A DNA stretch of 64,000 bases from Methanopyrus sp. SNP6. Its GTDB lineage: Archaea > JAADCQ01 > Methanopyri > Methanopyrales > Methanopyraceae. Position numbers and translations under genes: made by a program. The notes under the pieces are model-generated. The model was given only the letters and a program-made list of their open reading frames with translations, searched no databases and had not been told where the DNA came from. This document shows positions 9,047-22,251 of this stretch, one piece after another (within the stretch, counting starts at the first letter, position 1; each line of letters begins with the position of its first letter). The stretch is from contig NZ_CP019436.1 of the NCBI RefSeq assembly GCF_002201895.1, positions 261,456 to 325,455 of the forward strand. The letters are read 5' to 3'.

Positions 9047-10377
9047 TTCATCGCGCCCCAGGCCCACAGAATGGTACTCCACACTAACGTCGGTACCGTC
9101 AAGTACATCGAACCCAACAGACTTCTCCGCATAACCTGCTTCTCGTGACATCTCACAGCCGCCGCGGCCACGGCGACGTTGTAAGGACATGCGGCCGCCG
9201 CGCAAGCCGCACCGGCCAGCGTGATCTCCGGGTGCGGTGTCCCAGACGCGAAAGTCGCCATCACCGCGGTAGTACTACCGACGACCATCTCCCCTACGAA
9301 CCCCATCAGGAAAGTGACAAGCGGAGAGGCGGCGTAGGGTCTGATCGCACTTGGGAGTTCGGAATAGGATATCAACGTTCCAAGGACCATTAAAAGCACG
9401 ATCGAGAGCAGCTCCTCCCAAGTCTTACGGAGTACGCGGATAAGTGCTACGATCATCCGGGCCCACCGCGGACTCGCATACAACAGTACGGCAGCCCACA
9501 GCAACATCCACGGTTGCACCCACTCCACCTTCAGGACCTTGGCCACCCCTATACCGATGACCGCCAGCCCGTAGACCGCCATTCCCTTGACGGTATCGTT
9601 GCTGATCTCGAGACTAGTCTCCTCACCTGTAACTCGCAGATACCAAAAGAAGCCGGAAGTTACGCCCAAAACCAAGAGCGGACCTACGATACTGGGAGAC
9701 GTAACCCACCAAACGGCCAGCAAGGAGGCGGTAGTCATAATCCACATGGTCATCAGTAGAGCCTTCGACACCCTCAGGTCGGCGGTCTCCGCCACAGCAT
9801 AGGGCAGTATCAGCAAGCTCGGCGCGATGCAGAGGGCGACATCAAGGCTCAACTTTTTGGGATCGATCCCTAAAACTCCTGAGGTGACGAGAATCGGCAC
9901 ACCGAAGGCAGCAAACACTCCGAACGGAGCGTGTCCTACGAGAGCTGCGGCCGCAGCAGTCGTCTTACTCAGCCCCGCTTCGACGAGGAGCGGACCTACT
10001 AAAGTGGCGGGCGTTCCGAAACTGGCCACGCTCTCGAAGGCACCGGTGGCTACGACGTTGAGACCTACCAGGCACGGACCGCGCAGCTGGCAGATCTCCT
10101 TCAGAACGTGCACGATGTCCTCCAGTACGCCGTCTTCACGCATCATTTCCACAAGCGTGAGGCTGGCCAACACGACGGCTAGAATCTCAACACCTTTTAG
10201 CGCGGAATCGACGACCCGAACGCAGGGTACCTGAACGGTGAACGGAGTGAATGTTGAAGCTATAAGGTAGAGGGCTAAGGAAATGGAGGACGCTCGGAGT
10301 AGTCCCCAACCGCGGAGTGCGGCCACGATCAAAGCTGAGATAGACACCAGGGGGACAACCAGTGCGAGCGATGGCAA
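9043..10377 (-). CDS. L-lactate permease (LctP) family transporter
   Basis: 444 residues with about 12-13 hydrophobic segments, so an integral membrane transporter. The segment FGTPATLVGPLLVEAGLS followed by ALVGHAPFGVFAAFG matches the LctP family; lactate or glycolate are the known substrates, but this organism is an autotroph and the substrate here is open. TTG start with SD GGGGGATC. Its first 16 bp overlap the start of the divergent gene at 10362. The stop overlaps the radical SAM start, suggesting the two act together. Confidence 0.8.
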   Translation of the reverse strand: MPSLALVVPLVSISALIVAALRGWGLLRASSISLALYLIASTFTPFTVQVPCVRVVDSALKGVEILAVVLASLTLVEMMREDGVLEDIVHVLKEICQLRGPCLVGLNVVATGAFESVASFGTPATLVGPLLVEAGLSKTTAAAAALVGHAPFGVFAAFGVPILVTSGVLGIDPKKLSLDVALCIAPSLLILPYAVAETADLRVSKALLMTMWIMTTASLLAVWWVTSPSIVGPLLVLGVTSGFFWYLRVTGEETSLEISNDTVKGMAVYGLAVIGIGVAKVLKVEWVQPWMLLWAAVLLYASPRWARMIVALIRVLRKTWEELLSIVLLMVLGTLISYSELPSAIRPYAASPLVTFLMGFVGEMVVGSTTAVMATFASGTPHPEITLAGAACAAAACPYNVAVAAAAVRCHEKQVMRRSLLGSMYLTVPTLVWSTILWAWGAMK

Positions 10378-11321
10378 CGGTGATCCCCCTTCTGATGACG
10401 ATAGCGATCGGGGTTCAAGGTCTCGACGTCTGTATAACCTCAGACGCTATCAACGGGAGTACTTCTGATATCGCATTCCTGAAGGAGTTCGCAGTCGCCT
10501 TACACGATAAAGCTCCCACCTATGGCCTCCGGATAGACAGGATTTACGTGAGTTACAGCTCAGCTGGCGGCGCGGAGTATCTATACGAGCTGAGCGAGGG
10601 TGAGTTAAAGCTACTGCAACAGTATCGGCGTATAGGGGAAGTACCACGAGGGTTCCGTATCTGCTCCGAGTTAGGTTTGGACACGCTGATCTGGATCGCA
10701 GGTAGGGATGGGTCCTCGTACTACGAGCTTAAGAGGATCCTCCTGACCGAGAACTCCACGGTGAGGCACGTCGTCTACGTGAATGTATCTCCGGACTACC
10801 TGGTAACCGACGACCCGAACTTGCCCGGATACTTCAGCGTTAACTGCTATTGGAACGGGCCGGATAAGATCTGGTACCCGTACTATTATCTTAAGCTACT
10901 GGGTGTGGAGGTCGTCAACGTAAAGGACGTCTACCCCGCTTACAGCAGCACGACCCAACTCATCTCATTGGCGGATATACTCGCCGACGCCGTTCTGAGG
11001 GCACTAACTAAAGCCGTTAAACACGGGCTGATCAGCCAACAGCCGCCCGAAGTTAAAGCCGAAGTGAGTCGCTTACTGTCTGCCCTAGAAGGTCCGGAAC
11101 CACCATCACCGTCGGCCTTAGAGGAGGTGATGCGGAAAGGTGGGACGCCCAAAGAAGTCATTGAGAACGTCCTAGAGGACTTGGGGAAGTACTGGAGCGG
11201 TAGCATGGACATAAGGACTCCGCAAGAGTCCCCTGTAAATATTATATACACCCTTTTGACCCTCATTCCATGGCCGCGGAGACGCCCCGGCGGTGTAGCC
11301 CGGTCAAGGGCCCGTGGGTGA
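10362..11321 (+). CDS. Secreted protein of unknown function, runs into tRNA-Glu
   Basis: 319 residues. GTG start with SD GGGGGAC (an ATG at 10371 is an alternative). Residues 1-20 form a signal peptide (MATVIPLLMTIAIGVQG), and the rest is soluble with no second membrane helix. The middle is Tyr-rich (WYPYYYLKLLGVEVVN). No family recognised. The last 38 nt lie inside the tRNA-Glu gene, and the tRNA TATA box is inside the coding region; the final residues are basic (PWPRRRPGG). Either the overlap is real or a recent mutation has extended the frame from an earlier stop. Confidence 0.6.
   Translation: MRAMATVIPLLMTIAIGVQGLDVCITSDAINGSTSDIAFLKEFAVALHDKAPTYGLRIDRIYVSYSSAGGAEYLYELSEGELKLLQQYRRIGEVPRGFRICSELGLDTLIWIAGRDGSSYYELKRILLTENSTVRHVVYVNVSPDYLVTDDPNLPGYFSVNCYWNGPDKIWYPYYYLKLLGVEVVNVKDVYPAYSSTTQLISLADILADAVLRALTKAVKHGLISQQPPEVKAEVSRLLSALEGPEPPSPSALEEVMRKGGTPKEVIENVLEDLGKYWSGSMDIRTPQESPVNIIYTLLTLIPWPRRRPGGVARSRARG
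11237..11248 (+). promoter_or_regulatory. TATA box of tRNA-Glu
   Basis: AAATATTATATA is a good archaeal TATA element; start of transcription would fall near 11270, about 15 bp before the tRNA. It lies inside the 3' end of the upstream coding region. Confidence 0.6.
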
Positions 11322-11413
11322 CCGCGGGCCCGCCGATATCATGCGGGACTTTCGAGGCCCGTCCGGGCCGGAGACATCCCGCGACCCGGGTTCAAATCCC
11401 GGCCGGGGCACCA
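11284..11413 (+). tRNA. tRNA-Glu(UUC) with two introns
   Basis: Acceptor stem GCCCCGG/CCGGGGC, T arm CCGGG-TTCAAAT-CCCGG and encoded CCA (11411-11413). The anticodon loop is CTTTCGA, giving anticodon TTC. Comparison with the usual archaeal tRNA-Glu shows two insertions: 31 nt at 11308-11338 in the D loop just before the 3' D-stem strand (with inverted repeat GGGCCCG/CGGGCCC), and 21 nt at 11355-11375 at the canonical 37/38 site (hairpin GGCCC/GGGCC). Removing both leaves 78 nt including CCA. Position 8 is C (11291) where T is expected, the site of C-to-U editing known in Methanopyrus. The exact splice points could shift by one or two bases. Confidence 0.9.
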
Positions 11414-11418
11414 AACCC

Positions 11419-11441
11419 TAAATCGTTACGAGAGCGATAAC
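11419..11441 (+). other. Post-tRNA AATCGTTA...TAAC element (tRNA-Glu)
   Basis: AAATCGTTACGAGAGCGATAAC begins six bases after the CCA end. The same AATCGTTA core with a following TAAC occurs right after the tRNA-Ser and tRNA-Arg genes. A role in termination or 3' processing is inferred. Confidence 0.4.
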
Positions 11442-22228: not shown

Positions 22229-22251
22229 AATCGTTATAAAACCAATAACGA
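22229..22251 (+). other. Post-tRNA inverted repeat (tRNA-Ser)
   Basis: TCGTTAT (22231-22237) and ATAACGA (22245-22251) form a perfect 7-bp inverted repeat with a 7-nt loop, eight bases after the CCA end. It shares the AATCGTTA core with elements behind the other two tRNAs. The TTATAAAA inside could instead be the TATA box for the gene at 22277. Confidence 0.45.

Follow-up and report, generated by a model that had tools for sequence, protein, structure and literature searches.

A two-intron tRNA-Glu(UUC) gene in Methanopyrus sp. SNP6 and inserts at the same D-loop site in the Hadesarchaea-containing phylum

Results and discussion

The window analysed here, a stretch of 64,000 nucleotides from the genome of Methanopyrus sp. 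SNP6, carries at 11284-11413 (+) a tRNA-Glu(UUC) gene that reads as three exons and two inserts. We put at roughly 95% the probability that this is a functional Methanopyrus gene with two protein-spliced archaeal introns. The gene is the known case in a sister species, since a D-loop intron in tRNA-Glu was already known from the heat-loving Methanopyrus kandleri, where it was reported for two tRNA-Glu (PMC3695527) and where the two tRNA-Glu genes of strain AV19 had been predicted by Marck and Grosjean (2003, cited in PMC3695527). The AV19 and window genes have the same anticodon, intron sites, lengths and C8, and they are 98-99% identical over 130 nt; one base of the D-loop intron hairpin differs, forming a G-U pair in the window copies instead of the G-C pair of AV19. 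A textbook oddity is hereby confirmed in a further Methanopyrus species.

Anatomy of the gene

The initial annotation had described a tRNA-Glu with two introns, one of them in the D loop, and its coordinates proved exact to the base. All parts of the gene lie on the forward strand. The 5' exon (positions 1 to 20b; 11284-11306) is delimited by sequence, by alignment and by a 5' half like that of the intronless tRNA-Asp, and its sequence holds C8 at 11291. It is followed by a 31-nt D-loop intron (11307-11337), assigned from motif geometry, folding and its retention in all Methanopyrus copies read, and by a middle exon (positions 21 to 37; 11338-11354) with the anticodon UUC at 11351-11353, assigned from sequence alignment and motif geometry. 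Motif geometry also delimits the canonical 21-nt intron at 37/38 (11355-11375), behind which the sequence of the 3' exon runs from position 38 to the encoded CCA (11376-11413). The two insert lengths agree with those first proposed, on the evidence of the sequence and of the alignment of copies, as does the 78-nt tRNA with encoded CCA that results when the exons are joined.

The D-loop junction can be located by comparison within the genome. Up to this junction, the intronless tRNA-Asp reads GCCCCGGCGGTGTAGCCCGGTC-T-ATCAT where tRNA-Glu reads GGTC-A-ATCAT, and the rejoined D arm of tRNA-Glu equals that of tRNA-Asp except for one base. Exon geometry and bulges place the junction at 20b/21, and not next to position 22 as originally suggested; a shift of one base would leave the product unchanged because an A stands on both sides. 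The 5' half of tRNA-Asp, the conservation described below and the folding of the D-loop insert together establish that the tRNA-Glu with two inserts is real and not a chance pattern.

A TATA-box-like element, tattatata (11240-11248, +), precedes the tRNA 5' end by about 40 nt and is a putative promoter of tRNA-Glu; GTAAATATTATATACACC at this element recurs at the syntenic M. kandleri copy. An upstream open frame (10362-11321, +) crosses the tRNA promoter and the 5' exon and ends at a TGA stop (11319-11321) inside the D-loop intron, and the syntenic M. kandleri copy shows the same arrangement.

Bulge-helix-bulge motifs and folding

Both inserts had been proposed as bulge-helix-bulge substrates, a description that stands in full for the 37/38 site. 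This site has the canonical hBHBh' structure, comprising the 5-bp anticodon stem, a 4-bp central helix between CUUU (11349-11352, +) and GGAG (11370-11373, +), the 3-nt bulges CG^A and AC^A, and a 5-bp h' (GGCCC/GGGCC), and its geometry is identical in all alleles. For the D-loop site the description holds in part. A 4-bp central helix joins the exon strand CGGU (11301-11304, +) to the intron's H' strand GCCG (11332-11335, +), with two predicted 3-nt bulges, CA^A (11305-11307, +) and AU^A (11336-11338, +), and a 10-bp h' (11308-11317/11322-11331, +), but the exon helix does not adjoin: an internal loop comes between the D stem and the central helix, so that the motif is relaxed rather than canonical. 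All named pairs of both motifs are standard in the five alleles.

The D-loop insert folds to -24.5 kcal/mol, against a mean of -13.7 kcal/mol for dinucleotide shuffles, and it beats 500 of 500 of them; the fold of the 37/38 insert is only moderate, with 36 of 500 shuffles equally good. At 37 °C the bulge-helix-bulge cloverleaf is less stable than the computed minimum by about 11 kcal/mol, which weighs only slightly against it because this program misfolds mature tRNA-Glu as well. For the same reason the unconstrained minimum-energy fold, which contains no cloverleaf, was used neither for nor against the proposed structure.

Conservation across Methanopyrus

Both inserts are present in all eight tRNA-Glu copies read from five Methanopyrus genomes, the window genome included, and the exons of the eight copies are identical except for one D-loop base in one M. 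kandleri AV19 copy. The inserts themselves vary. For example, the 37/38 intron helix GGCCC/GGGCC has become GGTCC/GGACC in genome G004, a compensatory change, and the D-loop intron of that genome is 34 nt long with a longer hairpin. In genome G002 the 37/38 intron measures 26 nt and its H' strand reads GAGG instead of GGAG, with the pairing to CUUU kept. Covariation was judged by eye from the alignment, and the D-loop central helix CGGU/GCCG is invariant in Methanopyrus and thus provides no covariation evidence. Variation of this kind is what functional introns should show.

Processing machinery and proposed pathway

Two genes of the window genome match the tRNA endonuclease family. Their products correspond to residues 191-359 and 14-176 of the chain in PDB 5x89, the M. 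kandleri endonuclease (E 7.5e-118 and 1.4e-112, respectively), and the genome accordingly encodes both subunits of an (alpha-beta)2 splicing endonuclease, with alpha as the catalytic subunit and beta as a separate structural one. A further protein, of the deaminase-THUMP type, matches PDB 3g8q (E 1.5e-168) and is identified as CDAT8 on the basis of its domain make-up and the literature. Both elements of CDAT8-dependent C8 are at hand, the base at 11291 and the CDAT8 gene. C8 occurs in 30 of the 34 tRNA genes of the window genome (26 of the 30 listed, together with Asp, Trp and the two Glu), and M. kandleri likewise has C8 in 30 of 34 (PMC3695527).

The primary transcript of tRNA-Glu would be trimmed at both ends, and CDAT8 would edit C8 to U8. 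The (alpha-beta)2 endonuclease would cut the canonical 37/38 intron first; its cleavage of the D-loop intron, at the relaxed bulge-helix-bulge, would follow at a slower rate, and a tRNA ligase would join the exons to give the 78-nt tRNA. In M. kandleri, the D-loop intron appears to be removed later than the canonical one (PMC3695527), and we infer by analogy the same processing in the window species, along with the precise positions of the cuts and the joining of the exons.

The difficulty of this pathway lies in the enzyme. Introns outside 37/38 with relaxed bulge-helix-bulge motifs are likewise found, together with an (alpha-beta)2 enzyme, in Crenarchaeota and other archaea with broad-specificity endonucleases; unlike those, the M. 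kandleri enzyme has no Crenarchaea-specific loop and is classed as constrained in specificity (PMC6379350). In vitro its cleavage of pre-tRNA-Glu(UUC) at the relaxed motif is slight (Kaneta et al. 2018, cited in the review PMC6379350). Both tRNA-Glu genes found in the window genome depend on the loss of a D-loop intron on which the M. kandleri enzyme reportedly acts only slightly in vitro. A helper as yet unknown, or some in vivo condition, may be needed for D-loop cleavage, because cleavage in vitro is slight and yet no other tRNA-Glu gene was found.

Alternative explanations

The gene could in principle be a pseudogene, a tRNA-Glu copy broken by insertions while another gene supplies the cell. 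Gene finders do pass over it: ARAGORN returned two other tRNAs in the window and nothing for tRNA-Glu at 11284-11413, and the Rfam tRNA model returned 31 tRNA genes for the genome with tRNA-Glu absent among them, an omission that we attribute in both programs to the split D arm. Against a broken gene, the exons are intact and the inserts are shared by both copies of the window genome and by every copy read from the other four Methanopyrus genomes, and transcripts of M. kandleri tRNA-Glu are edited at C8 (PMC3695527). The supply by another gene is also hard to reconcile with the genome, a single contig of 1,421,521 bp in which tRNA-Glu was found twice, as identical 130-nt copies at 272739 and 34510. 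The initial annotation had named an alternative tRNA-Glu gene as one finding that would count against it; the sole other copy found has both introns, and no intronless tRNA-Glu was found in this complete genome. We regard the pseudogene explanation as extremely improbable.

Retention of the D-loop insert, as an expansion of the D arm in a working tRNA, is also very improbable, although it draws on two observations from M. kandleri, namely the slight in vitro cleavage of the relaxed motif (PMC6379350) and edited reads still with the D-loop intron (114 and 294) in RNA-seq (PMC3695527). The same study reports the insert in edited precursors, which falls short of retention in mature tRNA, the other finding named at the outset as adverse. 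Moreover, joining of the exons gives a D arm that differs from that of tRNA-Asp at one base only, and the insert has the central helix and the pair of 3-nt bulges that an endonuclease substrate should show. These features favour a gene with two spliced introns.

D-loop inserts beyond Methanopyrus

The survey looked in archaeal genomes for tRNA-Glu genes whose D arm is interrupted by an insert. When each species was represented by a single genome, the scan returned Methanopyrus relatives and one Hadesarchaea MAG. Among the sampled archaeal genomes, true cases were found in six members of the Hadesarchaea-containing phylum (G079, G119, G210, G246, G299 and G396) and in G076 outside this phylum, at loci L087, L122, L123, L120, L086, L088 and L095; G246 was taken to be the same Hadesarchaea MAG, given the same sequence at the same contig position. 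A control run of the survey with the pattern reversed returned almost none. Matches in G237 (L094) and G397 (L121) were dismissed as chance occurrences of the pattern, each having a D arm of ordinary form and, further along, another ATCAT. The statement in the initial annotation that D-loop introns are rare agrees with this sampling, in which a single true case lies outside both Methanopyrus and the one phylum.

The inserts occupy the Methanopyrus site in the same tRNA and are 15-34 nt long, with hairpins that differ. Those of G079, G119, G210 and G396 share with Methanopyrus the central helix CGGU/GCCG and the bulge CA^A but are shorter, at 15-20 nt compared with 31 nt in the window, whereas G246, G299 and G076 have a 3-bp GUC/GGC helix in place of the 4-bp helix of Methanopyrus. 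Unlike in Methanopyrus, no C8 is present in the tRNA-Glu genes read from the phylum and G076. An intronless tRNA-Glu-like D arm also occurs in 18 of 28 genomes of the Hadesarchaea-containing phylum, so that several of these, in contrast to Methanopyrus, could do without the split gene.

The genomes with split genes also differ in their endonucleases, having a single gene wherever one was found, compared with two in Methanopyrus; no endonuclease gene was found in G210, and since these genomes are 67-94% complete a subunit may have been missed. One of these endonucleases, checked by sequence, can be aligned from end to end with the alpha4 enzyme of Methanocaldococcus (1a79), and the active-site His and Lys are kept in the alignment of the endonucleases from genomes with split genes.

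No report of D-loop inserts in tRNA-Glu of the Hadesarchaea-containing phylum was found in the literature searched. As far as that literature shows, the inserts in these six genomes and in G076 are new. It is possible, though we hold the view only tentatively and think it somewhat less probable than its opposite, that the D-loop tRNA-Glu intron is no peculiarity of Methanopyrus and that its site is common to two deep lineages. On this view, if the inserts are spliced, relaxed-motif introns can be removed by an alpha4-type enzyme, or else there is a partner subunit yet to be found. Splicing by an alpha4-type enzyme would conflict with the rule, as stated, that confines efficient removal of such introns to (alpha-beta)2 and epsilon2 enzymes, and a site common to two deep lineages would have arisen through common descent, transfer or repeated insertion. 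By providing genomes with a seemingly single alpha-type gene and D-loop inserts, the survey makes it testable which endonuclease architectures remove relaxed-motif introns.

tRNA gene count and a motif behind tRNA genes

The window genome has 34 tRNA genes, made up of the 31 recognized by the Rfam tRNA model, the two tRNA-Glu and a tRNA-Trp that has a long intron. For each of Methanopyrus sp. KOL6 and SNP6, tRNAscan-SE gave 31 tRNAs (PMC5504354), and this count probably missed the same three genes, the two tRNA-Glu and the tRNA-Trp. Two tRNA-like matches were rejected as further tRNA-Glu: that at 920196 is a tRNA-Asp, and that at G000:359166 is the tRNA-Trp. The latter locus, L076 (G000:359000-359400), is a tRNA-Trp(CCA) with a long intron of the 37/38 type, which resembles the archaeal C/D-box-guide intron of tRNA-Trp. 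Other Rfam matches in the region (mascRNA-like and BjrC68) scored far below their gathering scores and were set aside.

Behind tRNA-Glu, at 11425-11441 (+), stands a 17-nt palindrome-like motif, GTTACGAGAGCGATAAC, that is also found at 22233-22249 and at 14484-14468 (minus). Its consensus, GTTAYGA-N3-TCRTAAC, lies about 10-15 nt behind tRNA genes of the window genome, with all 34 of the 34 genes scoring at least 11/14 against it, compared with fewer than 1% of random stretches. In M. kandleri the motif has been described behind about half of the tRNA genes, with a guessed role in 3' maturation (PMC5217627).
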